NCBI RefSeq assembly: GCF_016865485.1
Contig: NZ_AP024452.1
Span: 4,176,501 to 4,240,500, forward strand
Direction of reading: 5' to 3'
Origin: Luteitalea sp. TBR-22
GTDB lineage: Bacteria > Acidobacteriota > Vicinamibacteria > Vicinamibacterales > Vicinamibacteraceae
DNA length: 64,000 nt
The position numbers were made by a program, and so were the translations under genes. Under the pieces are notes generated by a model. It worked only from the letters and a program-made list of their open reading frames with translations, had not been told where the DNA came from and made no database searches. This document shows positions 17,338-45,474 of this stretch, piece after piece. Positions within the stretch are counted from its first letter, which is position 1. The number at the start of each line of letters is the position of its first letter.

Positions 17338-18390
17338 CTAGTTTTCCCGGCGCGCCAGCATCTGGTCGACGACGACGATCACCACCACCACGAGGCCGAC
17401 GATCAGGCGGTCGTAGAAGGTGGCGCCAGGGACCTGCGGGAGGGCGTTGCGGAGGACGCCGAAGATCAACGTGCCGAGCACCGCCCCGACCACCGAGCCG
17501 CGGCCGCCGGAGAGGCTGGCGCCGCCCACCACGGCCGACGCGATGATGTCGAGCTCGTAGCCATTGGCGAGGTCGGCCTTGCCCTGGCCCTGGCCGAGCA
17601 CCAGGATCACGCCCGACAGCGCGGCCAGGACCCCGGACACCATGTAGACCATCGTCTTGATGCGTCCGACCTGGATCCCCGTGTAGCGGGCCGCCACCTC
17701 GTTGCCGCCCACCGCGAACACCGCGCGGCCGGCCTGCACGTGGCGCATGAACAGGTGGAACACCACGGTCAGCACCACCATCACGATCGGCGCGAGCCAG
17801 TCCAGCGGCACGCCGAGCGGCGCCCAGCCCGGCGGAATCCGCGCCGACACGTCGAAGAAGCGGCCCTCGGTGACGATGTAGGCCAGGCCGCGCGTGATGC
17901 CCATCACCCCCAGTGTCGCGATGAACGGCGGCAGGCGCACCAGCACCACCAGCGCGGAGCTGATCGCGCCGGCGATGGCGCCGACGCCCAGGCCGGCCAG
18001 GATCGAGGCCGGCAGCGACCAGCCGCCCTCGAGGAACAGGTAGCCGAGAACGACCGTCGTCAGCGCGATCACGGCCCCCGGCGCGAGGTCGACGCCCCCC
18101 GAGATGATCACCATCGAGGCGCCGACGGCCGCGATGCCGTAGATCGCCGAGTACTTGAGGATCAGCAGCCCGTTCTCGCCGTTGAAGAACGGATGCCGCC
18201 CGCCGCCGTCGGGCCAGAGGTACCAGGTGAAGAACGCAATCTCGGCCAGCAGGATGAACAGCGTGCTGAGCTCGCGCGTGCGCACGATCGCCCGCCACCA
18301 CGGCTGTGGCGGGCGGACCGGGCCGGCAGCCGGGGGGGCCGGCACGCTCCGGCTGCCCTCGCTGATGGCGGTTTGCAAGGCAGGGTTCAT
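17338..18390 (-). CDS. Sugar ABC transporter permease (RbsC/XylH family)
   Basis: 350 residues, inner-membrane permease of the carbohydrate uptake 2 (ribose/xylose/galactose) family with roughly 9-10 hydrophobic segments. Family motifs: [19 protein letters not shown] after the third helix, [65 protein letters not shown]. The hydrophilic N-terminal extension of about 30 residues is unusual but short. The ATG overlaps the ATPase stop by 4 bp. It forms the inner-membrane channel with the upstream ATPase and receives sugar from the lipoprotein encoded first in the operon. Confidence 0.93.
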
Positions 18391-19874
18391 GCCGCGTCGG
18401 TCTCCTCGGCGCGGGTGGCCAGATGCATCACGTCTTCCTCGGAAGCCCCGCGCAGCACCTCGCCCTGCACGCGCCCCTGCTTGAGGACGACGATGCGGTC
18501 GGCGAGGGCCAGCAGTTCGGGCAGGTCGCTCGAGACGACGAGGCACGCCATGCCGAGGGCGGCCTCCTCGCGAATCAGGTGGTGGATGTCGTGCTTGGCG
18601 CCGACGTCGACGCCCTTGGTGGGCTCGTCGAGCAGCAGCACGCGCGGCCCGGTGGCCAGCCACTTGGCCAGCACGACCTTCTGCTGGTTGCCGCCGCTCA
18701 GCGCGTCGGGCGGCACGTCGATCGAGGCCGCCTTGATGCCCCAGCGCTTCACGAGGGCCTCGCACTCGGCGCGCTCGCGCCCCGGTCGTCGACGCCACCC
18801 GTCGCGGGCGGCTTCGCGGGCCAGCACCAGGTTCTCGCTGATCGGCAGGTTGAAGAACAGCCCCTGCGACTGCCGCATCTCGGGCTGCAGCACCACGCCG
18901 CGCCGCACCGCCTCGGCAGGGTTGCGTGGCGCGAACGGCGCGCCATCGACCGCCATCGTCCCGGCCTGCGGTCGGTGCAGGCCGAAGACCGTCTCGACGA
19001 CCTCGGTGCGCCCGGCGCCGATCAGGCCGAACAGGCCGACGATCTCGCCCTCGCGCACCTGCAGGTCGACAGCCTCGAAGTGGGGGCGTCGGGTCAGGCC
19101 CGTCACCTGCAGGCGGACGCGGTCGCCGACCTTGCCCTCGCCGTGACCGGTCTCGAGGTCGCGGCCGACCATCGCGCGCACGATGTCCTGCGGCTTCTTG
19201 CCCGCGATCGGCCATGTGCCCACATGCTGGCCGTCGCGCAGCACCGACACGGTGTTGCACAGGCGGAACACCTCGGGCAGGCGATGCGACACGTAGATCA
19301 GCGTGACGCCGCGGCTGCGCAGGCGCTCGAGCACGGCGAACAGGTGGTCGACCTCGGCGTCGGTGAGCGCCGTGGTCGGCTCGTCGAGGATCAGCACCTG
19401 GCAGTCGAACGCCAGGGCACGCGCCACCTGCAGCAGTTGCTGCTGCGCCGCGCTGAGGTGCGACACCGTCGTCGATGGGTCGACGTTCAGGTGGAGCTGC
19501 GCGAGGAGCGCCGCGGCACGGTCGTGCATCGCGCGGCGATCGACGAGCCAGCCGCGCACCACTTCGTGGCCGGCGAAGATGTTCTCGGCCACGTCGAGGT
19601 TCGGGAACAGCAGCGTCTCCTGGTGGACCAGCCCGATGCCGTGATCGAGCGCCGCGCGCGGGTCCACCAGGTCGACGGGCTGCCCGTCGCGCAGGAGGCG
19701 GCCGCCGTCGGGGCGGTGGATGCCCGCGGCGATCTTCATCAGCGTGCTCTTGCCCGCGCCGTTCTCCCCCATCAGGGCGTGCGCGTCGCCGGCGGCGATG
19801 GACAGGCTCACGCCACGCAGCGCCTTCACGCCGCCGAAGTGCTTGCTGACGTCCTCGAATGCCAACGCACTCAT
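18387..19874 (-). CDS. Sugar ABC transporter ATP-binding protein, double NBD (RbsA/XylG family)
   Basis: 495 residues with two fused nucleotide-binding domains, as usual for pentose/hexose importers of the CUT2 family. NBD1 has Walker [11 protein letters not shown], degenerate signature [15 protein letters not shown] and Walker [14 protein letters not shown]2 has a non-canonical P-loop GLIGAGRTE, signature [15 protein letters not shown] and [11 protein letters not shown]. Only NBD1 is expected to hydrolyse ATP fully, as in RbsA. ATG 19874 is 54 bp after the GH30-like gene stop, and the 3' end overlaps the permease start. Confidence 0.95.
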
Positions 19875-19928: not shown

Positions 19929-21515
19929 CTACGGTAACGACCCGGCCGCCTCCCAGAACGTGACCACGGACATCGGCGGCAGCGTGAGCGTCGCGACGCC
20001 GGCCGCCGAGACCGGCACGTCGGGCAGGGGCTGCCACGTCTCGGGGGTCGGCCGCGGCCCCACCCAGTGCCGTGCCGGCAGGAGGTCGGTCACCGTGCGT
20101 CGCCCGACGAGCCGTCGCGCGTCGGTCCCCGACACGTGCACCTCGAGGGGCACCGCATACCACGACGCATTGGCCAGCACGAACGCCGACGGGACACCGG
20201 CGTCGCCGCGCGCAAACGCGAAGGGAATGATCCACGGATCGTCGGACGCCACACGCGCGACCCTCATGCCCGCGCGCCCGGCGCGCGTCAGGTGGCGGTA
20301 CAGGTGGAAGCCCCGCTGCACCGTGAGGCGGCCATCGTCGCCGACGAGGAAGCCGGCGCCCTTGTTGGGCACCTGTCCGTCGGTCTGCCACTGGCTCCAG
20401 CGCTGGACGACGGCCCACGGGATGTACCCGTTGACGCCGACCTCGTACACATGCCGCCGGATGCTCTCGAGGAAATCGAAGGCCATGCGGGGCGTGGTCG
20501 CGCCCCCGGCCGGCACGTCGGCGCCCCACCGCGCGGACGTCACCCAGGCGTGAAGGTCGGGGCGCGAGGCCCGCAGCCAGGCGAGCGGGCGCGGGTCGGC
20601 ATGAGCCCAGAGTGGCGCGTACCAGTCAGCCGTGGGATCGCCCCCCGCGTCGAAGCCGTGACTGGTGACCAACCCGATGCTGCGCGCCGCGCAAGGGTCG
20701 GCGACGATGGCCGCGGCGATGGGACGGAGCCAGGTCCAGTAAGTGGTCTCACCAGGGGTGAGGCCGACGCGCTCGAGCCCGTGCCGGTCGAAGTAGCTCC
20801 GCACGGTGCACAGCAGGCGGGTCACCTGCGCCGGCGTCCAGAACAGGTTGTAGTCGTGCCCGGCCAGCCTGCCCGAGGCTTCGCCGGCCTCGGCATAGCG
20901 GATGGCGTGCTCGCCCTCGTTGTGCAGGCTGACCCATCGCACCGTCAGGCCTTCCTCCTTGGCGAGTCCCCCGACGTACGCGGCGAGATACTCGGCAAGC
21001 TCGAGGTCCATCGCGGGATCGAGGTCGCGTCCGCGCAACGTCCCCTGCCGCGTCATCCACCCGGGAGGGCCATAGAGGGTCGCGAGGATCTGCAAGGCGC
21101 CACCGCGGGCCCGTGTCGCGGCCGCGCCTTCGCGGGCGAACCAGCGCATCCACTCGGTGCCGACCGACAGGTCGATGCGCTTCGCGTCCGTGCGCTCCGG
21201 ATCCGCGTTGTCGTTGACCGGCTCGTGGAACGGGAGGATCCAGAGCTTGAGGAGGTCGGGCTGCAAGCCGTCCCTGCCGAACACGAGGTCGATCAACTCG
21301 CGACGGCTGGCCTCGGACAGGACGCTGGCGCCGCCGAAATCCTGTGGCGATGTCCGGGGATCGGGCGTCTGCGCGGACTGGACGTAATTGACGCCGAACC
21401 CGTCCCACACCCGCAACGGCTCGTCGAAGGCGACGCGGACGTGCGAGGGCGGCTGGGCTGCCGGGCGCGTCGGCGCCGCGGCGAGCACGGCGAGGCCGAG
21501 CAGGCCGGCGACCAC
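19929..21515 (-). CDS. Secreted GH30-like glycoside hydrolase, probable nucleophile replaced
   Basis: About 528 residues: signal peptide (VVAGLLGLAVLAAAPTRPAAQ), a TIM-barrel domain of GH30/glucosylceramidase type, then a C-terminal beta-sandwich ending in LTLPPMSVVTFWE. Barrel landmarks are WDGFGVNYVQSAQ, acid/base Glu200 in SLHNEGE, SHGFD after strand 6, and HAWVTSARWG where strand 7 normally carries the nucleophile Glu (FASEA or WTE). Here that position looks like Ser327, so activity is uncertain. The GTG at 21515 is the likely start because the frame upstream runs into the binding-protein gene; a CTG at 21536 would add basic residues. It sits inside a sugar ABC operon, suggesting a role in releasing or binding the imported sugar. 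Confidence 0.8.
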   Translation of the reverse strand: MVAGLLGLAVLAAAPTRPAAQPPSHVRVAFDEPLRVWDGFGVNYVQSAQTPDPRTSPQDFGGASVLSEASRRELIDLVFGRDGLQPDLLKLWILPFHEPVNDNADPERTDAKRIDLSVGTEWMRWFAREGAAATRARGGALQILATLYGPPGWMTRQGTLRGRDLDPAMDLELAEYLAAYVGGLAKEEGLTVRWVSLHNEGEHAIRYAEAGEASGRLAGHDYNLFWTPAQVTRLLCTVRSYFDRHGLERVGLTPGETTYWTWLRPIAAAIVADPCAARSIGLVTSHGFDAGGDPTADWYAPLWAHADPRPLAWLRASRPDLHAWVTSARWGADVPAGGATTPRMAFDFLESIRRHVYEVGVNGYIPWAVVQRWSQWQTDGQVPNKGAGFLVGDDGRLTVQRGFHLYRHLTRAGRAGMRVARVASDDPWIIPFAFARGDAGVPSAFVLANASWYAVPLEVHVSGTDARRLVGRRTVTDLLPARHWVGPRPTPETWQPLPDVPVSAAGVATLTLPPMSVVTFWEAAGSLP

Positions 21516-21544
21516 ACGACGTCGACCGGCCGGCAGCCGTGTGG

Positions 21545-22504
21545 CTACTGGCCGCGTTCGAGCTTGTTCCACTCGACCAGGTAGGCGTCGACGTTGGCGC
21601 GGTTCACCACGTCCACGCCCGAGTCGATGACCTTCTGGGGCGGCATCCGGCCGGCCTTGATCTCGGAGAGCAGGCGGATCGCCTCGCTGCCCCACCCGAA
21701 GTACTTCTGCCCCACCAGCGTGTGCACCTTCCCGGCCTTGAGGAGCTCGGGAGCCGGCGGGATCGTGTCGAAGCTGAAGACGCGGGTGCGCGCCGTGTCG
21801 ACCGGCTCGAGGGCGTTACGCGTCATGATCGGCCAGCCGCCGACCGAAATCCACGCATCGAGGTCCGGGTACCGGTTGGTCGCCGTCGCGATGATCTCGC
21901 CGGCGCGGACGATGTCCTCCTTGACGTCGAAGGTCTCGACGATCGTCACCCCGGCGTGCTGCTTGAGCACGTCGTTCACGCCGTCGAGGCGACGCTGGAG
22001 GTTGTAGGAGCCGAGGCTGGTCATCAGGGCGACCTTGCCCTTGCCGCCGAGGGCGTCCACGGCTTCCTGGGCCAGTCGCTGGCCGGCCTTGAAGTCGTCG
22101 ACGCCGTAGTAGGCCATGCGCTGCGAGGTCGGCGCGTCGGCGTCCCAGGTGATCACGGGGATGCCGGCGGCGATGGCCTTGTCGATGACCGGCGCGAGGA
22201 AGTCGCCATTGGTGCAGGAGATGGCGATGCCGTCGACGCGCTGCGAGATGAACGACTCGAGCACTTCCTTCTGGCGAAGCTGGTCGGCCGACTCGGGCGC
22301 CCGCCAGATCACCTCGATGTTGCCCAGTTCCTTGGCCTTGCGCTCGGCGCCGATGCGCGCGTAGTTGAAGACCGGGATGTCGAGGGCCTTGGGGATGACG
22401 GCGAACCGGAGCGTCTTCGGCCCGGCCGGCGCCGGCGTGGAGGACCCGCCGCCACAGGCGGAGGTGAACAGGCCGAGGCACAGGAGCGTGAGCAGTCGTC
22501 GCAT
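21545..22504 (-). CDS. Sugar ABC transporter substrate-binding lipoprotein (RbsB family)
   Basis: 319 residues. Periplasmic-binding protein of the ribose/galactose type (type I fold), anchored as a lipoprotein: signal MRRLLTLLCLGLFTSAC with lipobox TSAC. Domain 1 begins KTLRFAVIPKALDIPVFNYARIGAERKAKELG; DGIAISCTNGDFLAPVIDKAIAAGIPVITWDADAP is the conserved block of strand 4-5. The ligand is a sugar but the specificity is not readable. It is the first gene of the operon; ATG 22504 has GGGGAAG upstream, whereas ATG 22531 is an alternative with a longer n-region. Confidence 0.93.
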   Translation of the reverse strand: MRRLLTLLCLGLFTSACGGGSSTPAPAGPKTLRFAVIPKALDIPVFNYARIGAERKAKELGNIEVIWRAPESADQLRQKEVLESFISQRVDGIAISCTNGDFLAPVIDKAIAAGIPVITWDADAPTSQRMAYYGVDDFKAGQRLAQEAVDALGGKGKVALMTSLGSYNLQRRLDGVNDVLKQHAGVTIVETFDVKEDIVRAGEIIATATNRYPDLDAWISVGGWPIMTRNALEPVDTARTRVFSFDTIPPAPELLKAGKVHTLVGQKYFGWGSEAIRLLSEIKAGRMPPQKVIDSGVDVVNRANVDAYLVEWNKLERGQ

Positions 22505-22589
22505 GGGCTTCCCCGCCGTGCCTGCGCCCATGCCGCGACGCGCGTTGCATGGGGAGACGGTTCGGCGTGCGCGGATTGTAGCGTAAAGG

Positions 22590-22676
22590 ACGGGAGTCGG
22601 GAGTCGGGAGACGGGAGTCGGGAGACGGGAGTCGGGAGTCGGGAGTCGGGACTCGGGAGTCGGGAGTCGGGAGTCG
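22590..22676. repeat. GGGAGTC tandem heptad array
   Basis: About 12 copies of GGGAGTC and its one-base variants GGGAGAC and GGGACTC run head to tail between the divergent sugar-binding-protein and NIPSNAP genes. A small inverted repeat (GGGAG-TTG-CTCCC) follows near 22689-22701. It occupies the region where both promoters should lie. Confidence 0.88.
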
Positions 22677-22732
22677 ACGGTCGGCAGCGGGGAGTTGCTC
22701 CCGCGGCCGCCGCGGACCAGACTTGTCGCGCC

Positions 22733-23518
22733 ATGACCCGACGCGACTTCCTCTCCACCACCCCGGCCGCCGCCCTCACCCTGACGGGCGGCACCGGCGC
22801 CGCCCAGACTCCCGGGGCCGCGAGCCGCCAGCTCTACGAGCTCCGCCGCTACCGCATCCGCACCGGCTACATGCGCGACACGACGCGCGCGTATCTCAAG
22901 GACGCGCTGCTGCCGGCGCTCACGCGCCTGGGCCTCGGCCCGGTCGGCATGTTCGACGTCACGACGGGCGAGCCGCCGACGTGCGTGGTGCTGATCCCGC
23001 ACGCCACGGCCGACTCGGCCGTCACCCTCGGTCGTCGCCTGATGAGCGACGCCGCGTACGTGAAGGCCGGCGCGCCCTTCCTCGACGCCCCAGCCGATCG
23101 GCCGGCGTTCGATCGCGTGGAGAGCGCGCTGCTGCTGGCCTTCGAGGGCATGCCGCAGATCAAGGCGCCCGACACCAGCAAGCCCCGCCTGTTGGAGATC
23201 CGTCGCTACGAGGCGCCCAGCCAGATGGCCGGCCTGAAGAAGATCGAGATGTTCGACACCGGCGGCGAGTTGGCCATCTTCCGCAAGGTCGGCCTGACGC
23301 CCGTGTTCTTCGGCCAGACCCTCTACGGCGTGCGGCTGCCGCAGTTCGAGTACATGCTCACCTACGCGAACATGGCCGAGCGCGAGCAGCAGTGGAACGC
23401 GTTCCGCAACGATCCCGACTGGAAGGTGCTGTCGCAGAAGGAGGAATACAAGGACGCCGCGATCATGTCGGGCGCGACGTCGACGTACCTCTCACCGCAG
23501 CCGTGGTCGCAGATCTGA
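22733..23518 (+). CDS. Tat-exported NIPSNAP family protein
   Basis: 261 residues with a twin-arginine signal (MTRRDFLSTTPAAALTLTGG). Two ferredoxin-like NIPSNAP domains follow: the first begins QLYELRRYRIRTGYMRDTTRAYL, the second RLLEIRRYEAPSQMAGLKKIEMFDTGGELAIFRKVGLTPVFFGQTLYG. The domain is a dimeric alpha/beta barrel of uncertain function; exported copies are common in Acidobacteriota and Planctomycetes near sugar-metabolism genes. It is transcribed away from the first sugar operon and towards the second. The stop TGA is followed directly by an octad array. Confidence 0.88.
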   Translation: MTRRDFLSTTPAAALTLTGGTGAAQTPGAASRQLYELRRYRIRTGYMRDTTRAYLKDALLPALTRLGLGPVGMFDVTTGEPPTCVVLIPHATADSAVTLGRRLMSDAAYVKAGAPFLDAPADRPAFDRVESALLLAFEGMPQIKAPDTSKPRLLEIRRYEAPSQMAGLKKIEMFDTGGELAIFRKVGLTPVFFGQTLYGVRLPQFEYMLTYANMAEREQQWNAFRNDPDWKVLSQKEEYKDAAIMSGATSTYLSPQPWSQI

Positions 23519-23645: not shown

Positions 23646-24608
23646 CTATGCCTGCTTCGCGCGTCGCGCCCGATCGGCGGCGACGGCGAGCACGATGATG
23701 ATGCCGATGATGATCTCCTGCACGTAGTTGGGCCAGCCCATCTGCTGGCTGCCATTGCGCAGGAACGCCATGACCAGGGCACCGATCAACGACCCGGCGA
23801 TCGTGCCCTCGCCGCCCGACAGGCTGCCGCCGCCGATGACCACGGCGGCGATCACATCGAGTTCGGTGCCGATCGCCACGGTCGGATCGCCCTGCCGCAA
23901 CCGCGACATCTGCATCACGCCCGACAGCCCGAACAGCAGCCCGGCGAGGCCGTAGATCCACACCTTCAGGCGATCGGTCTGCACGCCGCAGGCGCGCGCC
24001 GCCGCCTCGTTGCTGCCGAGCGCGAAGACGCGACGCCCGAACACGGTCTGCTGGAGCAGGAAGGTCGCCGCGATGGCGAGCACCAGCGAGACCCACACGC
24101 CCGGCGCCACGAGCAGCCAGGACGGCGTCGGGAAGGTCACGGCCAGCTCGTTGACCCACGTGGCGGGCGCGTTGACCGTCTGCTGGTCGGCGAGCCACTT
24201 GGCCACGCCCCGGGCGATGCCCAGCATGCCCAGCGTGGCGATGAAGGGCAGCACCTTGAGCCGCGTGATCGCCAGGCCGTTGACCAGCCCCACCACCCCG
24301 CCCGTCACGACGCCGGCCAGGATCGCCGCCAGCGGCGGGTAGCCATCGCGCAGTCCGAGGGCGGTCACCACGCCCGCCAGGGCGATCGTCGACCCGACCG
24401 CCAGGTCGATGCCGCCGCTGACGATGATGAAGGTCATGCCGATCGCGCCGAGCGCCACGATGACCGTCTGCGCGAAGACGATGCGCAGGTTGCGGGGCGA
24501 CAGGTACTGCGCCGGGTCGTCGCTGAGGGCGGCGAAGATGCCGATCACCAGCACGAGCCCGAGGATGGGCGCCAGCACGGAGAGACGGGCACGAAGCGTC
24601 GAGAGCAT
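23646..24608 (-). CDS. Sugar ABC transporter permease (RbsC family), second operon
   Basis: 320 residues, the normal RbsC length, with about 9-10 hydrophobic segments. Motifs: IGMTFIIVSGGIDLAVGSTIALAGVV, LKVLPFIATLGMLGIARGVAKWLA, VFALGSNEAAARACGVQTDRLKVWIYGLAGLL, ELDVIAAVVIGGGSLSGGEGTIAGSLIGA. It is the last gene of the UxaA-led operon. ATG 24608 begins the conserved N-terminus. The substrate may be a uronic-acid-related sugar given the operon partners, but the permease itself does not show this. Confidence 0.93.
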   Translation of the reverse strand: MLSTLRARLSVLAPILGLVLVIGIFAALSDDPAQYLSPRNLRIVFAQTVIVALGAIGMTFIIVSGGIDLAVGSTIALAGVVTALGLRDGYPPLAAILAGVVTGGVVGLVNGLAITRLKVLPFIATLGMLGIARGVAKWLADQQTVNAPATWVNELAVTFPTPSWLLVAPGVWVSLVLAIAATFLLQQTVFGRRVFALGSNEAAARACGVQTDRLKVWIYGLAGLLFGLSGVMQMSRLRQGDPTVAIGTELDVIAAVVIGGGSLSGGEGTIAGSLIGALVMAFLRNGSQQMGWPNYVQEIIIGIIIVLAVAADRARRAKQA

Positions 24609-24611
24609 GGC

Positions 24612-24722
24612 AGTCTCAGAATTTCAGGAATTCCAGGAATTTCGGGAATGTCAGCCCACCGCCAACCTTCGAGGTGCCGAGCTGGCGGTGAGATTGTGCA
24701 ATTGTGAAATCCCGCAATTTCA
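24612..24722. repeat. Octad arrays (CAGGAATT / GTGCAATT) between ATPase and permease genes
   Basis: The left arm has CAGAATTT, CAGGAATTC and CAGGAATTT units (24614-24650); the right arm has GTGAGATT, GTGCAATT and GTGAAATC units (24690-24722). The core holds a short hairpin (CCACCGCCA with TGGCGGTG). The ATPase stop TGA (24720-24722) is inside the right arm. Confidence 0.7.
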
Positions 24723-26213
24723 CTGTGCCGTCCCGATCGCCGCCGCCATCACCGACTCGGGCGTCCACTCGGCCAGCGGCCGCGCCGGCGTCAGCGTGCC
24801 GCGGCTCATCACCGCCAGCGAGTCACACAGCCCGAACAGCTCGGGCAGGTAGGAACTGACCATCACCACGGCGCAGCCCTGGTCGGCCGCACGGGCGATG
24901 GCCTCGTAGAGCTGCACCTTGCTGCCGACGTCGACGCCTCGGGTCGGCTCGTCGAGCAGCCAGACGGTGGCCTGCTGGTGCAGCAGGCGCCCGACGGCAA
25001 CCTTCTGCTGGTTGCCGCCCGACAGCGTGCGCACCGCCTGCGCCGACGTGCGCGCCTTCACCTTCAGCACGTCGATCCAGCGGTCGCCCTCCCTTCGCTG
25101 CGCCGGCCCGTCGAGGATCCCGCGGCGGCTGATCGCGCCGTACCGCGTGCAGGTCATGTTGTCGGCGATCGACATCGGCAGCGTCAGGCCCTCGCCCTTG
25201 CGGTCCTCACTCAGGTAGCCGAGGCCGGCGGCCAGGCGTTCCCACGGCGCCTTGCGCGCGACGGGCACGTCGCGGCCGTCGACGGCGAGCCGTCCGTGCA
25301 CGGGTCGGTCCTCGAGCCCCATCAGCCCGCGCAACAACTCGGTGCGGCCGGCCCCGACCAGGCCGGCGATGCCCAGGATCTCGCCAGCGCGCACCCGCAG
25401 CGACGCCTGACGCACGCGTCCCTCGACGCGCACGTCCTCGGCCTCGAGGCGCACGGTGTCGCCGACCGGCACGCGCCGGGTCGGAAACAGCTCGGCGACG
25501 TCGCGCCCGACCATGTGGCTGATGATCTGCGTGTCGGAGAGGGCGTCGACCGTGCCCGTCCACACCGTCCGGCCATCCCGCAGCACGGTGAGGTCGTCGG
25601 CAATCGCCCGCACCTCCTCGAGGAAGTGACTGATGTACACCACGGCCACGCCGCTGGCCCGTAGCCGCCGGATCAGATCGAACAGCCGTTCGACGTCCTC
25701 GCGCGGAAGGCTGCTCGTCGGCTCGTCCATCAGCACCACCTTGGCGTCGGCCGACACCGCCCGGCAGATCTCGACCACCTGCCGCGCGGCGATGGGCAGG
25801 TCGGCAACGCCACGATCGGGGTGCAGCTCGGGGTGGTGGAACGGGGCCAGCACGCGCGCCGCCTCGACCCGCGCCGCGGCACGGTCGTAGCGTCCGGCGC
25901 GACGCGGCTCGCGCCCGAGCAGGATGTTCTCGGCCACCGTGAGGTGGTCACACAGCGAGAGTTCCTGGTGGATCAGCGCGATGCCCGCCTGCCGCGCCTC
26001 GAGCGGCCCAGCCGGCCGGTACGCGGCCCCGCCGATCGTCATCGACCCGTCGTCGGCGCGCAGGCCACCGGCGATGACGTTCATCAAGGTCGACTTGCCG
26101 GCGCCGTTCTCGCCGACCAGCGCGTGGACGCGGCCGGGGCGCACCTGCAGCGTCACGCCGTCGAGCGCGCGGGTGGCCCCGAAGTGCTTCTTGATGTCGG
26201 TGAGGGAGAGCAC
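24720..26213 (-). CDS. Sugar ABC transporter ATP-binding protein, double NBD (RbsA family), second operon
   Basis: About 497 residues with two nucleotide-binding domains. NBD1: Walker [11 protein letters not shown], RbsA-type signature region LPIAARQVVEICRAVS, Walker B VVLMDEPTSSL. NBD2: [39 protein letters not shown] 26213 is preferred because the family N-terminus begins LSLTDIKKHFGATRALDGV and the DNA upstream is the repeat array. It serves the binding lipoprotein encoded upstream and the permease encoded 111 bp downstream; the two ATPases in this window are paralogues rather than recent duplicates, since they differ at many positions. Confidence 0.93.
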   Translation of the reverse strand: MLSLTDIKKHFGATRALDGVTLQVRPGRVHALVGENGAGKSTLMNVIAGGLRADDGSMTIGGAAYRPAGPLEARQAGIALIHQELSLCDHLTVAENILLGREPRRAGRYDRAAARVEAARVLAPFHHPELHPDRGVADLPIAARQVVEICRAVSADAKVVLMDEPTSSLPREDVERLFDLIRRLRASGVAVVYISHFLEEVRAIADDLTVLRDGRTVWTGTVDALSDTQIISHMVGRDVAELFPTRRVPVGDTVRLEAEDVRVEGRVRQASLRVRAGEILGIAGLVGAGRTELLRGLMGLEDRPVHGRLAVDGRDVPVARKAPWERLAAGLGYLSEDRKGEGLTLPMSIADNMTCTRYGAISRRGILDGPAQRREGDRWIDVLKVKARTSAQAVRTLSGGNQQKVAVGRLLHQQATVWLLDEPTRGVDVGSKVQLYEAIARAADQGCAVVMVSSYLPELFGLCDSLAVMSRGTLTPARPLAEWTPESVMAAAIGTAQ

Positions 26214-26389
26214 GGGGTCGGGAGTCGGGAGTCGCCCGGGGTGTGGGTGGTAGGGCCCGTTGTCCCAACGCGGCCCTCTGCATGCAGCGTTCACAGGGCC
26301 GGGCTCGGAGAGCCGGCCCTACCTTCTTCGCAGGCGTCCGACATCAAACGTCGGACATCAATCGTCAAACGTTAAACGTCAAACGTTAC
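26214..26389. repeat. Composite: GGGAGTC units, REP pair, CGTCAAA heptad array
   Basis: A few GGGAGTC units (26216-26233) are followed by an inverted REP pair: GTAG at 26250-26253 with an imperfect GGCCCGTTG stem, and a GGGCCGGCTC stem ending in CTAC at 26319-26322. Then eight 7-nt units in perfect phase (CGTCCGA, CATCAAA, CGTCGGA, CATCAAT, CGTCAAA, CGTTAAA, CGTCAAA, CGTTACT) run to the stop of the binding-protein gene. Confidence 0.8.
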
Positions 26390-27405
26390 TTCAGATACTC
26401 CGCCAGCGGCGGGTTCAGCAGCGCCTTGCTCGCGTCGGCGTCGAGGTTCTCGGGGGTGACCATCATGACGCCCGTGTCGACGCGCGGCTCGATCTTCTCG
26501 CCGCGCAGGTGCGCCACGATCGTCTTCAGCCCCTGGTAGCCCATCTCGAACGGGTTCTGCAGCACCACGCCGTCGAGCTGCTTGTTGCGCATCGCGGTGA
26601 TGAACGCCTCGCTGGCGTCGAAGCCGACGAACCTCACCTGCCCCGCCTTGCCGACGTCCTGCAGCGCCAGCAGCATGCCCGCGGTGGAGGACTCGTTGGG
26701 CGTGAAGATCCCGTCCACCTGGTTGCCGAAGCGGTTGAGGAGGTTCTCGGCGGCGCGCTTGGCCGTGTCGCGCGTCGGCCCGGAGTACTGGTCCGACGAC
26801 ACGATCTGCACGCCCGGATACTGCGCCTTCATCCGGTCGAGGAAGCCGCGCTCGCGCGCCTCGGTGCTGGCCGACCCTTCCTGGTACCGCAGCACCAGCA
26901 CGCGGCCCTTGCCGCCGAGCAGCGTGCCGAGACGGTCGGCCGCCAGCGCGCCGCCCTTCTCGTTGTCGGTCGCCACGAAGCTCACCGCGTCCTGCGAGGC
27001 CAGCGCAGAGTCGATCACCACGGTGGGGATGCCGGCCTGCCTGGCCTCCTGCACCGGACGAACCAGCGCACTGGCGTCGAGCGGCGCCAGCACGATGCCG
27101 TTGACGCCCTGGCTCAGGAAGCCCTCGACGACCTGGATCTGCTGCTCGCGGTCGTCCTCGCGGATCGGGCCCTTCCACGTCAGGCGCACCGGCACGCCTT
27201 GCGCCTCGTACTCGCGCTGCGCCTTGATCGCCCCGGCGTGGATGCTCTTCCAGAACTCGTGGGTCGTGCCCTTGGGGATCACCGCGACATGCAGGCCGCC
27301 GGTCGCCTTCAGGTCCTTGGTCGTCTGGGCCTCGTCCTTCGCCCCGCCACAGCCGGCCATCGTCATGGCCAGCAGGAGGGCCGTCAGCCCACGTTGAATG
27401 CGCAC
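26386..27405 (-). CDS. Sugar ABC transporter substrate-binding lipoprotein (RbsB family), second operon
   Basis: 339 residues. Lipoprotein signal MRIQRGLTALLLAMTMAGC (lipobox MAGC), then a type I periplasmic-binding fold: LHVAVIPKGTTHEFWKSIHAGAIKAQREY, QGVNGIVLAPLDASALVRPVQEARQAGIPTVVIDSAL, VDGIFTPNESSTAGMLLAL, GFDASEAFITAMRNKQLDGVVLQNPFEMGYQGL. The FWKSIHAGA and DGVVLQNPFEMGYQG blocks are typical of ribose/xylose-like binding proteins. Start is GTG 27405 with GGGAG about 8 nt upstream. Ligand unknown; the operon suggests a sugar acid or its parent sugar. Confidence 0.93.
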   Translation of the reverse strand: MRIQRGLTALLLAMTMAGCGGAKDEAQTTKDLKATGGLHVAVIPKGTTHEFWKSIHAGAIKAQREYEAQGVPVRLTWKGPIREDDREQQIQVVEGFLSQGVNGIVLAPLDASALVRPVQEARQAGIPTVVIDSALASQDAVSFVATDNEKGGALAADRLGTLLGGKGRVLVLRYQEGSASTEARERGFLDRMKAQYPGVQIVSSDQYSGPTRDTAKRAAENLLNRFGNQVDGIFTPNESSTAGMLLALQDVGKAGQVRFVGFDASEAFITAMRNKQLDGVVLQNPFEMGYQGLKTIVAHLRGEKIEPRVDTGVMMVTPENLDADASKALLNPPLAEYLK

Positions 27406-27446
27406 GTTGTGATCTCCCAAGCGATGAGATGGCCGACAGGGCAGCG

Positions 27447-27546
27447 GTAGGGGTCGACTCGGCGAGTCGCCCCCACCACCGTCCCGATCCGCGATTCCCG
27501 ATCCGCGATCCGCGCCCTCCATCCGTCGGCCAAGGCCGACGGCTAC
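27447..27546. repeat. Inverted REP pair; stop codon of the dehydrogenase supplied by GTAG
   Basis: GTAG (27447-27450) plus hairpin GGGTCGACTC / GAGTCGCCCC (one mismatch), then a perfect stem CCGTCGGCC / GGCCGACGG (27523-27531, 27534-27542) followed by CTAC (27543-27546). On the minus strand the latter is GTAG plus palindrome, and its TAG is the in-frame stop of the alcohol dehydrogenase. CGATCCGCGATTC-like direct repeats lie between. Confidence 0.75.
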
Positions 27547-28700
27547 AGCGGGGCGTACACGCCCTTCACGTAGTCGGCGGCGCGGCGATCGTCGCTGCCG
27601 AACGCCTGCGGCACCTCGTCGAGGGCGTGGTAGCGATGCGTCACGATGCGACTCACGTCGATCGCCGACGACTCGAGCAGCGCGAGCGACTGACGATACA
27701 CCGACGGCCGCCCGTCGGCGTCGAACCCGCCTGACGCGCCCACGGGCGACACCAGCGTCGGCTCGCGGAACATCAGCGTGTTCAGCACCCCGATGTCGAC
27801 GCCGGACTGCCCGTGGGCGTACAGCAGCACCGTCGCCTGCTTGCGCACCAGCCCCGGCATCTGCCTGAACACCTGCGCGCTGCCGGAGGCGTCGATCAGG
27901 TACTCCACGCGCCGGCCGCCGGTCAGCGTCAGCGTGGCGTCCACGACGTCGGTGCCGAGCGGGTCGATCACCTCGTCGGCGCCGTAGTGGCGCGCCAGCC
28001 CCTGCCGGGTGGCATTGGGCTCGCTCACGAGGATCCGCCCCTCGAAGCCGACGACCTTCCGGAGGTGCTGCAGGAACAGCAGGCCGGCCGGGCCGGCGCC
28101 GGCGATCAGCACCGACCGCACGCGGGCGGACGGGTCGGGATCCTGCAAGCGATAGCGGGCAATCGCCGAGGCCTGTCGCACGGCGTCGTGCGCGTGGATG
28201 ATGCAGGCCAGTGGCTCGGTCAGGGCGGCCTGCTCGGCCGGCAACGTGGCGCCACGCTTCACGGCGTTGACCGCCGGCACCACGATCACCTCGGCCAACC
28301 CGCCCTGCAGTCCGGTGATGCCGTGTTCGCCGTACGTCTCGCACTGGTGCGAGTCGCCGGTGGCGCAGTACTCGCAGAGCGGGTGCGTGCCGGCACTCAG
28401 GCAGTTGCGGCCCTGGTCGAGCACCACGGCGTCGCCGACCGCGAGGTCGCGGACCTCGGCGCCCCGCGCCTCCACGACCCCGGCCACCTCGTGCCCGAGC
28501 ACCTGCGGCGACACGTCGAACGGGATGGGCCGTCCCAGCCGGTCGGTATGGTAGTTGGCGTGCCCCTCGAAGATGTGGAAGTCGGTGCCGCACAAGCCGA
28601 CGCCAGTCACCCGCACTACCACGTCGCGCGGCCCGACCTCGGGGTCCCCGATCTCGCGGACCGCCATCACGCCGGGCGCGGTCAGGACGGCGGCCCTCAC
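27543..28700 (-). CDS. Zinc-dependent medium-chain alcohol/sugar dehydrogenase
   Basis: 385 residues. Catalytic-zinc ligands Cys37 (GLCGTD) and His70-Glu71 (LGHE); structural-zinc cysteines Cys100, Cys109, Cys112 and Cys120 with wider spacing than the classical four-Cys lobe. Rossmann motif AGAGPAGLLFL binds NAD(P). It probably oxidises a polyol or sugar acid; the preceding UxaA-type dehydratase and downstream importer suggest sugar-acid catabolism. GTG 28700 is chosen because GGGAGG lies 5 nt upstream; a TTG at 28715 lies within the preceding repeat. The TAG stop comes from a REP element. Confidence 0.9.
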   Translation of the reverse strand: MRAAVLTAPGVMAVREIGDPEVGPRDVVVRVTGVGLCGTDFHIFEGHANYHTDRLGRPIPFDVSPQVLGHEVAGVVEARGAEVRDLAVGDAVVLDQGRNCLSAGTHPLCEYCATGDSHQCETYGEHGITGLQGGLAEVIVVPAVNAVKRGATLPAEQAALTEPLACIIHAHDAVRQASAIARYRLQDPDPSARVRSVLIAGAGPAGLLFLQHLRKVVGFEGRILVSEPNATRQGLARHYGADEVIDPLGTDVVDATLTLTGGRRVEYLIDASGSAQVFRQMPGLVRKQATVLLYAHGQSGVDIGVLNTLMFREPTLVSPVGASGGFDADGRPSVYRQSLALLESSAIDVSRIVTHRYHALDEVPQAFGSDDRRAADYVKGVYAPL

Positions 28701-28713
28701 GCGTGCCTCCCGC

Positions 28714-28840
28714 AATTGGAAATTTGAAATTCGAAATTCATGTGCACGTGGGTCGAAAGACCTGCCGAAGGCCTCGCGGGCCTAGCGGCGAAGCCGCGGG
28801 CCCCGTTCAATTTCAAATTTCCAATCTCAAATTACAAGCT
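28714..28840. repeat. AATTTGA heptad arms with GC-rich hairpin core
   Basis: The left arm (28713-28740) has GAAATTTGAAATTCGAAATT-type units; the right arm (28807-28840) has the reverse complement (CAATTTCAAATTTCC). The core contains AGGCCTCGCGGGCCT and GCGGCGAAGCCGC hairpins. It separates the dehydratase and dehydrogenase genes of the same operon; the dehydratase stop TAA (28832-28834) is inside the right arm. Confidence 0.75.
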
Positions 28841-30400
28841 GACAGATTGCTCCGCCCACACCTGGAACTCGCGATGCTTGTTCTCCTCGGACTTGCCGAG
28901 GATCTCGCCGCTGGCCACCCGGCGGACGTGCTCGAAGACCTCGAGGCCGACCTCGTCGATCGACCTGGTCCCGTCGATGATGTCGCCGGCCGACAGGTCG
29001 AGGTCGTTCTTCATCCGCTCGTAGATCGCGTTGTTGGAGGCCAGCTTGAGCACCGGGGCGATGGCGTTGCCGATTGTCGTGCCACGACCGGTCGTGAAGA
29101 CCACCAGTTGCGCGCCCGACGCGATGAGCCCGGGCGTCGACTCCTGGTCGTAGCCGGGCCCCTGCATCAGGTAGAGGCCCGGCCCCGGCGGCTGCTCGGC
29201 GTAGCCCACCACGCCCTCGACGCGCGTGGTCCCCGCCTTGGCGATCGCGCCGAGCGACTTGATGGTGATGTTGAGCAGGCCGCCGGCGACGTTGCCCGGA
29301 CTCGGATTCTCGTTCAGCACCGTGCCGAACTTGGCGGCGTAGTCCTTGTACCAGTCGACCATCGCGTACACGGCGCGCCCCGTCTCGGCGTCCCTGGCGC
29401 GCCAGGCGAGGATGTGCTCGGCGCCGCAGAACTCGGGGACCTCGGTGATCAGCACGGTGCCGCCCTGCCGCACCAGTTCGTCGGCGGCGCGGCCGAGGGC
29501 CGGGTTGGCCGAGAGCCCCGAGAAGCCGTCCGATCCGCCGCATTTCACCCCGAGGGACAGCTTGCTGATCGGCGCCGGCTGGCGGGTGATCTGGTCGACG
29601 ACCGGCAGCATCGCCTCGACCGCCTCGAGCCCGCGCTTCACCGAGCCCTGCGTCCCGCCCGCCTCCTGGATGCCGATGCGCGCCACCGGCTTGTTCAGCG
29701 GCCGGTGCAGGTCCGACAGGTACTGCTCCATCACCGTCAGGTTCGTCTTCTCGCACCCGAGGCCGATGAAGACGACGCCGCCGACGTTGGGGTGCTCGGC
29801 GTAGGCCGCCAGCGTGCGGAGCATCACCTCGATGTTGGAGCCGTCGGAGCAGCCGCACCCCTTGTTGTGCGGGATGGCGACCACGCCGTCGACGTTGGGG
29901 TACTTCGCCCTGTCGAACAGCGTGAACTCGGCCACGGTGGCGATCTGCACCGCCTCGTGCGCGGCGCACATGCTGGTGGGCACGATCAGCACCCAATTGC
30001 GGATGCCGACCCGCCCGTCGGGGCGGTGGTAGCCCATGAACGTGGCGCGCTGCGCCTCGGGCACGTAGTCGGGGGCGGGCGTGTGCAGGTCGTCGGCCAA
30101 CTCGCGCACCACCGGCACGTCGTTGGACATGTTGGCGCGCGAGATCAGCGCCCCCAGGGCAACGCCCTTCGAGGTGCCGATCGGCTGGCCGTACTGGCGC
30201 ACGAACTGGCCCTCGGGGATGGCCGCGAGGGCGAACCGGTGCCCGGGCGTGATGTCGTCGAGGACCTCGACGGTGGCCTCACCGAGGAGCACCCGGGTGC
30301 CACGGGGCACCGGGACCCTGGCGACGGCGACGTTGTCACGGGCATCGACCTGGATGGCATACGCCGAGAGGGGGGCGGCTTCGGAAGCGACGGGAGCCAT
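28832..30400 (-). CDS. UxaA family hydrolyase (altronate/galactarate dehydratase type)
   Basis: 522 residues. The N-terminal SAF-like domain (about 1-110; VLDDITPGHRFALAAIPEGQFVRQYGQPIG) is joined to the catalytic domain of the altronate dehydratase family (GYHRPDGRVGIRNWVLIVPTSMCAAHEA, HNKGCGCSDGSNIEVMLRTL, GLGCEKTN, LGVKCGGSDGFSGLSANPALG). Conserved cysteines in GCGCSDG, GLGCEKT and VKCGGSDG probably hold the metal or cluster. The family dehydrates D-altronate to 2-keto-3-deoxygluconate, or galactarate in GarD. It is the first gene of the second sugar operon, so uronate or aldarate catabolism is the best guess; the exact substrate is not readable. Confidence 0.9.
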   Translation of the reverse strand: MAPVASEAAPLSAYAIQVDARDNVAVARVPVPRGTRVLLGEATVEVLDDITPGHRFALAAIPEGQFVRQYGQPIGTSKGVALGALISRANMSNDVPVVRELADDLHTPAPDYVPEAQRATFMGYHRPDGRVGIRNWVLIVPTSMCAAHEAVQIATVAEFTLFDRAKYPNVDGVVAIPHNKGCGCSDGSNIEVMLRTLAAYAEHPNVGGVVFIGLGCEKTNLTVMEQYLSDLHRPLNKPVARIGIQEAGGTQGSVKRGLEAVEAMLPVVDQITRQPAPISKLSLGVKCGGSDGFSGLSANPALGRAADELVRQGGTVLITEVPEFCGAEHILAWRARDAETGRAVYAMVDWYKDYAAKFGTVLNENPSPGNVAGGLLNITIKSLGAIAKAGTTRVEGVVGYAEQPPGPGLYLMQGPGYDQESTPGLIASGAQLVVFTTGRGTTIGNAIAPVLKLASNNAIYERMKNDLDLSAGDIIDGTRSIDEVGLEVFEHVRRVASGEILGKSEENKHREFQVWAEQSVSL

Positions 30401-39670: not shown

Positions 39671-39719
39671 GCAGACCAGGGCGCGTGTCCGCAACGGGCA
39701 CGCGCCCTGTGTCGTCTGC
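39671..39719 (+). terminator. Strong stem-loop after the second TonB-dependent receptor
   Basis: AGGGCGCGTG (39678-39687) pairs perfectly with CACGCGCCCT (39699-39708); an outer GCAGAC (39671-39676) pairs with GTCTGC (39714-39719). No T-run follows, so it may act as a Rho-assisted terminator or a 3' barrier. Confidence 0.55.
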
Positions 39720-39789
39720 GGGTGATTTCCCGTTGCGCCCTGCGCCGCGTCCGCATAGGCTGTCGCGGACCCCCTCCTCCGGAACGCCC

Positions 39790-41118
39790 ATGAATCGTCG
39801 CGAATTCCTCTCGTCCTCGGCGGCCGCGCTCACGGCTGCCACCGCCCTTCCTCCGTCGGTCCACGCCGCCCTGCAGGGCGGCGCCGCGCCAGGCCGCCCC
39901 CGCCGCTACGCCATCGTCGGCACCGGGGGGCGCGGGTCGTCCATGTGGGGGACCGGCGTGAAGGCCAAGTGGGGCGACACGGTGCAGTTCGTCGGCCTGT
40001 GCGACCCCAACCCGAAGCGGGCCGAGGTGGTGCGCGGGTTGCTCGGCGTCGAGTGCCCGGTGTTCACCGACTTCGACCGGATGGTGCGCGAGGCCAGGCC
40101 GGACCTGATCGCCGTGACGACCGTCGACGCGCACCACGCCGAGTACATCGTGCGGGCCCTCGACCTCGGGATCGACGTGATCACCGAGAAGCCGATGACG
40201 ACCGACGAGAAGCAGTGCCAGGCCGTCATCGACGCCGAGAAGCGCAACAAGCGCAAGATCATCGTCGGCCACAACATGCGCTTCTCGCCGGCGCACGTGA
40301 AGATCAAGGAGCTGATGCTCTCGCAGCCGGTCGGGCCGATCCGGTCGGTGGACTTCCACTGGTACCTCGACACCAGCCACGGCACCGACTACTTCCGTCG
40401 CTGGCACGGCATCAAGGCCAAGAGCGGCTCGCTCTGGGTGCACAAGGCGACGCACCACTTCGACTACGTCAACTGGCTGCTCGACGCCGAGCCGGTGCAG
40501 GTGCAGGCCTACGGCGGCATCAAGCGGTACGGCGCCGCCGGGCCGTTCCGTGCCATTAACTGCCGCACCTGCCCGCACACGGCGAAGTGCCCGTTCTACT
40601 GGGACATGACAAAGTCGGCGTCGGCGATGCGGCTGTACGGCGGCGAGGTCGAGAAGGTCGACGGCTACCTGCGCGACGCGTGCGTGTTCCGGCCGGAGAT
40701 CACCACCTACGACACGATGACGGCGACCATCAAGTACAGCACCGACGTCATCCTCTCGTACTCGCTCAACGCCTACATGCCGATCGAGGGGTACTCGCTG
40801 TGCTTCAACGGCGACGGCGGCCGGGTGGAGATCCGGTCGTACGCCAACCAGCCGTGGAAGGTGGACCAGGAGTTCGAGGTCTCGGTGATCAAGGCGTTCG
40901 GCCAGCGGACGATGGTGCCGGTCCCGACCGCCGAGGGTGAGCACGGCGGCGCCGACGACGTGCTGCGGAACCTGATCTTCCGCCGGCCCGAGGTCCCCGC
41001 GCACCTGCGCATTCCCGACTCGCGCGCCGGCGCCATGTCGGCCCTGACCGGCATTGCCGCGCGGCGCAGTTGCGAAGAGAATCGGCCCATCACGATTTCC
41101 GACCTGGTGACGTTCTGA
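39790..41118 (+). CDS. Tat-exported Gfo/Idh/MocA oxidoreductase with a cysteine cluster
   Basis: 442 residues. Twin-arginine signal ([22 protein letters not shown]), then a Rossmann NAD(P) domain ([15 protein letters not shown]) with the family EKP motif (DVITEKPMT) and a C-terminal alpha/beta domain with the catalytic-site [11 protein letters not shown]. An insertion holds Cys258-x2-Cys261-x5-Cys267 ([16 protein letters not shown]), which looks like a metal site. Exported members of this family oxidise or reduce sugars in the periplasm with a tightly bound cofactor. The stop overlaps the next gene's ATG by one base. Confidence 0.92.
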
Positions 41119-42524
41119 TGTCCATCTCCCGACGATCCTTCGTGTCCTCGGCCGCCGCCGGCGTGGCCGGCGGCCTGGTGGCGGGCACGCCCGCGATGTC
41201 GCAGACGGCCGCGAGCCGCAGTCGCGTGCTCGGCGCCAACGACCGCATCCGCATCGGCTCGATCGGCGTGGGCGGCATGGGCCGCTCGCACCTGGGCAAC
41301 TTCCAGCAGCACGACGACGTGCAGATCGTCACCGTGTGCGACGTGTGGGACGTCAATCGCCGGCGCGCGCAGCGGATGACCGAGAAGCAGGCCGGCGGCG
41401 CCGCCACGATGGAATCGGACTTCCGGCGGGTGATCGACCGCCCCGACCTCGATGCGGTGATCGTGGCGACCGTCGATCACTGGCATGCCATCCCGATGAT
41501 CCTCGCCTGCCAGTCGGGCAAGGACGTGTACGTCGAGAAGCCGATCTCGCACAACCTGAAGGAAGGCCGCGCCATGGTCGAGGCGGCCCGCAAGTACGAC
41601 CGGGTCGTGCAGGTGGGCACGCAGCAGCGCTCGGGTCTGCACTTCCAGGAGGCGATCAAGGTCGTGCAGTCGGGGGCACTCGGCAAGATCCACCGGGTGC
41701 ATGCCTGGAACACGGGCAACCAGTCGCCGGCCGGCCTCGGCAAGCCGGCCGACGTTCCCGTGCCCGCCGGGCTGGACTGGGACATGTGGCTGGGCCCCGC
41801 GCCGAAGGTGGCGTTCAACCCGAATCGGTTCATCTTCAACTTCCGCTGGTTCTGGGACTATGCGGGCGGGATGATGACCGACTGGGGCATCCACCTGCTC
41901 GACCTGGCGCTGTGGGGCATGAAGGAGACCGCGCCGAAGTCGGTGTACGCGGTGGGCGGCAACTTCGTGCTCGACGACAACCGCCAGACGCCCGACACGA
42001 TCGACGCCATCTACGAGTTCCCGGGCTTCGTCTGCTCGTACAGCAACCGCACCGGCAACGCCTACAACGGCGCCGGCCGCGGCTACGGCATCGAGTTCTA
42101 CGGCACCAACGGCACGCTGTTCCTCGACCGCGGCGGCTTCGAGGTGATCCCGGAGACGGGCGGCACGGCCACCGCGCCGACACCTCAGTACCTGTCGGAG
42201 CAGGAACCCGTCGCGCCGGTCTGGAAGCGGTCGTGGAACGCGCCGACCAGGGCCCGCACACAAGGCATGAAGGCCGGCACGTCGGACCAGAACCTCACGC
42301 ACATCCGCAACTTCCTCGACTGCATGCGATCGCGGCAGCGTCCCGTCTCCGACATCGAGATCGGGCACCACTCGACGGCGATGTGCCTGCTCGGCAACGT
42401 CGCCTATCGGACGGGCCACAAGCTCACGTGGGACGCCGCCAAGGAGGAGTGCGTGGACGACCCGAAGGCCAATGCCCTGCTGACCCGCGAGTACCGCGAA
42501 CCGTACACGCTCCCGAAGATTTGA
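41118..42524 (+). CDS. Tat-exported Gfo/Idh/MocA family oxidoreductase
   Basis: 468 residues. Twin-arginine signal ([20 protein letters not shown]). Rossmann domain [20 protein letters not shown] motif in [16 protein letters not shown]; catalytic region [17 protein letters not shown]. Conserved HWHAIP and KPISHNL blocks match the large Planctomycetes/Acidobacteriota group of exported dehydrogenases. It overlaps the previous gene by one base and precedes the old-yellow-enzyme gene after a REP pair. Substrate unknown, probably a carbohydrate. Confidence 0.93.
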
Positions 42525-42538
42525 ACCATCCCGATGAC

Positions 42539-42590
42539 GTAGCCGTCGCGCGTGCGCGGCGGCTGACCGTCGGCCGAGGCCGACGGCTAC
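42539..42590. repeat. Inverted REP pair
   Basis: GTAG (42539-42542) plus an imperfect CCGTCGCGC hairpin (42543-42562), and the perfect stem CCGTCGGCC / GGCCGACGG (42567-42586) plus CTAC (42587-42590). It fills most of the gap between two co-oriented genes. Confidence 0.75.
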
Positions 42591-42622
42591 GACACGGTTC
42601 GGGCCTGCCATCGACACCACGA

Positions 42623-44055
<1,433 letters not shown>

Positions 44056-44059
<4 letters not shown>

Positions 44060-45291: not shown

Positions 45292-45472
45292 GAATTGCAG
45301 AATTTCAGGATTTCAGAATTTCAACATTGCAGGATTCACCGCCACGTTGACTGCACGGCACCAGCGTCACTGTGCAGGTGATCCGCGCAACGTGCGGCTT
45401 CGAAGTGCTGCAATTCTGCAATTCTGCAATTCTGCAATTCTGCAATTCTGCAATTCTGCAATTCCGTAGACG
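45292..45472. repeat. AGAATTTC octads (left) and GCAATTCT tandem octads (right)
   Basis: The left arm (45292-45340) has imperfect AGAATTTC units, and 45412-45468 holds seven near-perfect GCAATTCT units ending just before the next ATG. The arms are reverse complements and flank about 70 bp with a CGCAACGTGCGG hairpin. No room is left for a separate promoter unless it is inside the repeat. Confidence 0.88.
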
Positions 45473-45474
45473 CC

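Follow-up and report, generated by a model that had tools for sequence, protein, structure and literature searches.

An invariant serine at the nucleophile position in a bacterial protein family with the GH30 fold

A gene of Luteitalea sp. TBR-22, found in the window (the whole stretch of 64,000 nucleotides that was analysed), forms together with 47 relatives a distinct, monophyletic bacterial family that has the GH30 fold and in which the nucleophile glutamate has been replaced by an invariant serine. A sequence-only reading of the window had taken the serine as a possible sign of a repurposed barrel; the substitution is real and family-wide, goes beyond a single odd residue, and defines the whole family instead. 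Clan GH-A serves as the textbook example of an unvarying catalytic pair, and a family in which the acid and the sugar pocket persist beside a fixed serine would show how a retaining glycosidase can change its chemistry and provides a concrete set of proteins for the study of that change. A bolder proposal, more likely wrong than right, is that this branch of the clan dropped the two-glutamate retaining mechanism family-wide. It would then be a GH30 relative of inverting or hydratase/lyase type, the first of its kind, or else a Ser-His-Glu hydrolase that arose on the barrel of a glycosidase, and horizontal transfer would have carried it through many phyla as a tool for sugar acids. Annotation pipelines relying on fold or motif searches would assign these proteins to GH30 or GH59 and to the usual glycosidase mechanism. 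No description of the serine variant was found in the literature searched, a coverage outside which most subscription papers fall.

Gene, operon and predicted fold

The serine codon (TCC) was read from the sequence within the motif HAWVTSARWG. The residue is Ser327 when counted from the GTG at 21515, S387 in the longest ORF (P0001) and S307 in the modelled stretch (window 19932-21455, minus strand), whose numbering is followed for all residues below. The start of the gene is uncertain, the candidates being GTG 21572 and GTG 21515. A 4-base start/stop overlap with the solute-binding gene was considered and is wrong, as the codon concerned is GTA; the solute-binding gene terminates at TAG 21545-21547. 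Coordinates of the gene, of its main residues and of its neighbours are collected in Table 1.

Table 1 Features of the window discussed in the text (residue numbers follow the modelled stretch).
Feature	Position in window	Strand	Remark
Ser-variant GH30-like gene	19929..21572	-	stop codon 19929-19931; signal-like hydrophobic N-terminus
Ser codon TCC (S307), GH30 nucleophile position, strand 7 end	20535..20537	-	
Acid/base Glu (E180), strand 4 end, in SLHNEGE	20916..20918	-	aligned with GH30-like acid/base Glu
Asn (N179) preceding acid/base Glu	20919..20921	-	alignment column
His (H266), strand 6 end	20658..20660	-	alignment column
Phe (F268), GH30-like rows mostly Tyr here	20652..20654	-	alignment column
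Glu (E236) of PGETTYW, strand 5 end	20748..20750	-	alignment column
Trp (W347), strand 8 end	20415..20417	-	alignment column
ORF with ABC solute-binding protein (Peripla_BP_4)	21545..23002	-	true start internal to ORF
Sugar ABC ATPase	18387..19874	-	ATPase start at 19874
Sugar ABC permease (BPD_transp_2)	17338..18390	-	
Galactarate/altronate dehydratase-like protein	28832..30400	-	PF20629, PF04295; TIGR03248 below its cut-off

The genes run in the order solute-binding protein, Ser-variant GH30-like gene, ATPase and permease, so that the embedding in a sugar ABC operon proposed by the sequence-only reading stands. A zinc alcohol dehydrogenase gene and the galactarate/altronate dehydratase-like gene come further on in the window in the same direction, and the latter is part of the sugar-acid context of the window gene. 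A second sugar ABC system (permease and ATPase, window 23646-27400, minus strand, with a solute-binding protein in ORF 26386-28593) adjoins the first. Elsewhere, window 39685-46779 carries three Gfo/Idh/MocA-like ORFs with one old-yellow-enzyme-like and one MFS-transporter-like ORF in between, all named by eye; this is possibly another sugar-oxidation cluster.

The AlphaFold2 model of the window protein (mean pLDDT 88.3, pTM 0.91) is a GH30-like (beta/alpha)8 barrel with a beta-sandwich, of which residues 3-506 can be superposed on chains of GH30 enzymes. GH30 structures rank first in Foldseek, with 7n6o at E 3.9e-28, and the best solved match by VIA is the GH30_10 xylobiohydrolase AcXbh30A (PDB 7n6h, 7n6o; Z 36.5, rmsd 2.3, 412 residues aligned), which is also best by profile search (E 9.6e-13). 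AcXbh30A shares the barrel and beta-sandwich with the window protein at about 18% identity over the superposition, but has Glu in WMTE where the family has Ser. Alignment of the family with 14 GH30-like proteins by hhalign (probability 99.9, E 2.3e-36) placed WVTS on WITE. The GH30-like fold that had been proposed from the letters is borne out by the model and the structure matches, and the protein has the landmarks SLHNEGE, SHGFD and PGETTYW that were named there, with the Glu of SLHNEGE aligned with the GH30-like acid/base residue. In the model E180 comes directly after the strand 172-176, and E236, H266 and S307 lie at the ends of the consecutive strands 5, 6 and 7.

The window protein has no GH30 Pfam match; of 45 members, PF14587 is reached by a single one (E 0.00032), as is PF17189 (E 0.0011). 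The only Pfam family touched by most members (33 of 45 at E <= 0.01) is PF02057, that is GH59, the galactocerebrosidase family; the window protein scores 21.1 bits, below the cut-off of 27, which a few relatives exceed, and the serine family lacks the strand-7 Glu.

The structural equivalence of the serine was assessed by refolding the same alignment as a model ending exactly at Ser (pLDDT 84.4) and reading the last aligned residue pair. Among the 24 listed entries of human glucocerebrosidase (GBA1, a GH30 enzyme sharing the fold at Z about 34), Ser pairs with residue 340 in 18, with 379 in three and with 341 in three. Residue 379 is taken here to be residue 340 in precursor numbering (offset 39), and with this count Ser pairs with Glu340 in 21 of the 24. 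The serine also pairs with residue 297 of TcXyn30B in all three rows and with residue 253 of 1nof, while the BsXynC rows end at residue 229. PMC13431644 gives Glu340 as the GH30 nucleophile of glucocerebrosidase, at the place where the window family has Ser, and PMC7262913 assigns Glu297 of TcXyn30B to the -1 subsite. According to these two sources (PMC7262913, PMC13431644), the GH30 -1 subsite contains the two Glu together with one Asn, one Tyr and one Trp, the conserved Tyr and Trp being Tyr279 and Trp341 in TcXyn30B (PMC7262913). The assignment of Ser to the nucleophile position in the sequence-only reading is thus upheld. That reading had also asked whether another acid might occupy the site, for instance the Glu of PGETTYW: no other Glu or Asp is found there in the model, Ser itself being structurally equivalent to the nucleophile, and the PGETTYW residue aligns with the Glu/Asp of GH30 strand 5. 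An HMMER alignment to AcXbh30A that puts the catalytic Glu on a helix residue of the query was set aside, since hhalign, MAFFT and the structure concur against it.

Extent of the family and its residue pattern

The window protein was scanned once against 84,980 genomes of bacteria and archaea, and 47 loci with relatives came out. Ser is present in all 46 relatives covering the column, and the 47th (L050, 118 aa) stops short of it. The groups represented include Acidobacteria, Bacillota, Planctomycetota, Bacteroidota, Verrucomicrobia, KSB1, Anaerolineae, Trueperaceae and Lentisphaeria; with the last three assigned to their phyla, the family occurs in at least eight phyla. In the tree all 52 Ser rows form one clade with support of 100/100 on a stem of 2.68 changes per site; the nearest GH30-like rows are unsure, because long branches meet there, as the tree program warned. 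No intermediates between the family and GH30 were met in phylum scans in which five or six candidates per genome were scored: full-length members reached 573-852 bits and the next proteins at most 40.5 bits. These scans covered 296, 294, 251 and 240 genomes, and in each of them one genome gave a family-level match, always the centre genome itself. Likewise, the window protein found its own genome only among 396 (single protein query) and among 60 relatives, the family was absent from four other genomes of the same genus that were examined, and one tblastn search of a plasmid collection with the L035 protein, from Flexithrix dorotheae, gave no match. The rare, patchy spread and the absence from the four congeneric genomes suggest that the family has spread by horizontal transfer.

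Several loci carry more than one copy, namely L028 with five in tandem and L019, L030 and L041 with two or more, and Ser is kept in all tandem copies covering the site. The serine codons of the 45 rows of set A1 comprise 42 TCN and three AGC, so the residue has been retained across two codon classes. A sequencing error or lone oddity is ruled out by these two classes and by the serine in 46 of 46 relatives.

A joint MAFFT alignment served to compare the residues of the active centre between 52 family rows (the 45 rows of A1 and seven tandem copies) and 27 GH30-like rows. A1 excludes L043 (partial), L047 (broken frame) and L050, and the 52 exclude the partial copy L041:9855-10709. The GH30-like rows exclude L093, L120 and L122 (wrong ORF extracted), L124 (fused frame) and L113, a duplicate of L076. 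PF02055 is matched above cut-off by only 11 of these 27 rows; the others entered through matches to A1, to GH59 or to the window protein. The strand-7 nucleophile column holds Ser in 52/52 family rows and Glu in 27/27 GH30-like rows. Two positions after the strand-6 His the family has Phe throughout (52/52), whereas the GH30-like rows have Tyr (23), Trp (1), Ala (2) or Gly (1); judged from the alignment, this Phe would occupy the position of Tyr279 of TcXyn30B. The Tyr of the GH30 -1 subsite is able to hydrogen-bond the nucleophile. The remainder of the centre is kept: the acid/base column is Glu in 51 and Gln in one of the 52 family rows (26 Glu and one Lys in the GH30-like rows), the Asn before it and the strand-8 Trp are present in every row of both sets, and the strand-6 His is found in 52/52 family rows against 24 His and three Gln. 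The PGETTYW column of strand 5 is Glu in 52/52, and in the GH30-like rows Glu (13), Asp (11) or Thr (3).

Set A1 has 46 invariant columns. With face windows drawn by hand around the strand ends, 21 of 64 positions on the active face are invariant and 19 of 298 in the remainder of the barrel (p = 7.6e-8). The catalytic centre looks re-tooled and not decayed. The window protein is among the more divergent members (end branch 1.37) and lacks the near-invariant D74, H96, E26 and W187, and for these reasons may differ from the rest of the family. Among the GH30-like rows, L123 (a 972 aa ORF) is the mirror image, with the strand-7 Glu present and Lys at the acid/base position (NKAG); it is a single sequence on a very long branch.

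Since there is no strand-7 carboxylate, textbook double displacement cannot form its intermediate, and canonical retaining catalysis via a glutamyl-glycosyl intermediate looks impossible. The acid/base Glu, the Asn and the Trp are kept, so that a general-acid-assisted reaction is still possible, and the chemistry that the family uses on its sugar is probably a different one. What follows goes past the residue pattern and is inference: direct attack by water ranks first, ahead of binding only, then hydratase or lyase chemistry, then a Ser-His-Glu triad and, last, phosphorolysis.

The family may consist of pseudoenzymes, sugar-binding barrels that have lost catalysis and serve recognition or delivery to transporters, a reading that we consider unlikely yet the strongest of the alternatives. 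The trait of a pseudoenzyme, loss of an essential catalytic residue, is present, the nucleophile Glu being absent in 52/52 rows; the window gene is placed between ABC genes, and one tandem copy of L028 (4882-6339) has Gln at the acid/base position with Ser kept, so that the fold can be useful without the general acid. SusD-like neighbours occur at 4/47 loci, but also at 1/20 controls. Set against this, conservation in the family is among its strongest at the acid/base Glu and on the active face, which favours catalysis over binding alone, and at the 12 of 47 loci without a signal-like N-terminus the protein would bind in the cytoplasm, where delivery is less sensible. The sequence-only reading had taken the ABC operon as a hint of a possible sugar-binding barrel; most family loci are without such an operon, and this argument does not carry over.

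A Glu236-His266-Ser307 triad, that is a serine hydrolase built on the GH30 barrel and cleaving sugar-acid esters or lactones, would fit the invariance of the three residues (52/52) and their place at the ends of consecutive strands. It is nevertheless a very improbable reading: the ordinary GH30 rows already have the His (24/27) and a strand-5 acid (13 Glu and 11 Asp of 27), and only the Ser is new.

Genomic context and candidate chemistry

The operon neighbours of the family number 112, of which 104 were scanned, the other eight being family copies; the tallies of these scans comprise the 25 most frequent families each. Recurrent among the matches listed are Amidohydro_2 proteins, ABC, TRAP and GntP carriers, GntR-FCD regulators, Gfo/Idh oxidoreductases, GH2, GH28 and sulfatases. 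By E-values, without model cut-offs, three GH2 neighbours match models of beta-glucuronidase, with E down to 5.5e-79, and a rhamnogalacturonidase model is matched by two GH28 neighbours. In a post hoc tblastn test, for which the probes were picked from the family loci themselves, Amidohydro_2 homologues were found at 14/47 family loci and 0/20 GH30-like control loci (p = 0.006), and the set of TRAP, GntP, SSF and GntR-FCD at 15/47 and 0/20 (p = 0.003); these p-values are soft, because probes so drawn favour the family loci and the loci total 617,848 and 311,033 bases, respectively. Beta-glucuronidase, sulfatase, GH28 and other single families did not differ between the 47 family and 20 control loci.

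A signal-like N-terminus, scored by crude hydrophobicity, is present at 34 of the 47 family loci and absent at 12, one not being scored, and the Amidohydro_2 neighbour proteins are without one. This suggests that the product of the barrel enters the cell by import and is there passed to the amidohydrolase. The usual cargo of TRAP and GntP carriers is acids, which suggests that the product is acidic. The Amidohydro_2 neighbour at L016, the locus of the Roseilinea member, has no match in the window's own genome. In four Phycisphaerae loci (L022, L024, L027 and L037) two neighbour families of about 535-565 aa recur (e.g. L022:4063-5727 and L037:6279-7886), and these gave no Pfam match at 1e-5.

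We tentatively prefer, at somewhat less than an even chance, an active acid-assisted enzyme on sugar-acid (uronide-like) glycosides working by direct attack of water. Glu180 would act as the general acid in the cleavage of a sugar-acid glycoside, with no covalent glycosyl-Glu intermediate; most likely, a water molecule in the space left by the Glu, held by Ser307 and His266, would attack C1 directly in a single displacement with inversion. Most members of Gram-negative type would act outside the cytoplasm, with TRAP or GntP carriers importing the product, and those without a signal-like N-terminus would act after import by an ABC system. Several points weigh against the water mechanism: conserved pockets are found in binding proteins too, the change of Tyr to Phe renders the vacated side less polar and is no obvious aid to water, and the Gln copy of L028 has lost the acid/base yet keeps Ser. 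The sugar-acid part is weakened by the post hoc nature of the context test, by the single families that do not differ from the controls and by the missing match to the L016 neighbour in the window's genome, and a function shared by all members by the divergence of the window protein and its four missing residues.

The same sugar-acid context, with its Amidohydro_2 neighbours, could serve the triad, as the Amidohydro_2 superfamily includes lactonases; the L016 neighbour, on the other hand, resembles 3cjp and carboxyvanillate decarboxylases more closely in sequence than it does a lactonase. The sugar-acid context would also suit chemistry of the hydratase or lyase type, in which Glu180 would protonate the substrate for hydration of a 4,5-unsaturated uronide or elimination from a 3-keto-glycoside, no anomeric nucleophile being needed. 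GH88/GH105-type chemistry on unsaturated uronides needs no nucleophile. In 3-keto-glycosides, according to PMC10628242, beta-elimination cleaves the glycosidic bond without one, and the eliminases known there have a Mn2+ site and a different fold, which counts against such a role for the GH30 barrel. Gfo/Idh/MocA oxidoreductases at 11/47 family loci against 2/20 controls, 3-keto-disaccharide hydrolase (two members) and AP_endonuc_2 (three members) among the matches listed for the 104 neighbours, and the three Gfo/Idh-like ORFs seen by eye in the window would be in keeping with this chemistry. The Gfo/Idh excess is not significant (p = 0.32), however, and no polysaccharide lyase is among the matches listed for the neighbours scanned; we regard this chemistry as improbable.

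Last in rank, and scarcely probable, is an inverting phosphorylase, in which phosphate held at the nucleophile site by Thr306, Ser307 and His266 would attack C1. The GH112 phosphorylases, like other TIM-barrel relatives of glycosidases that have no nucleophile, keep the acid, as is the case here, where fold, acid/base Glu and Asn are those of GH30 and the strand-7 Glu is absent; GH112 is a separate family. The 12 of 47 loci without a signal-like N-terminus would suit such an enzyme, but phosphorolysis outside the cytoplasm is unlikely, and the 34 loci with a signal-like N-terminus speak against it.

Of the multicopy loci, the Prolixibacteraceae locus with five copies (L028:4882-12473) is adjoined by SusC/SusD-like genes and sulfatases.
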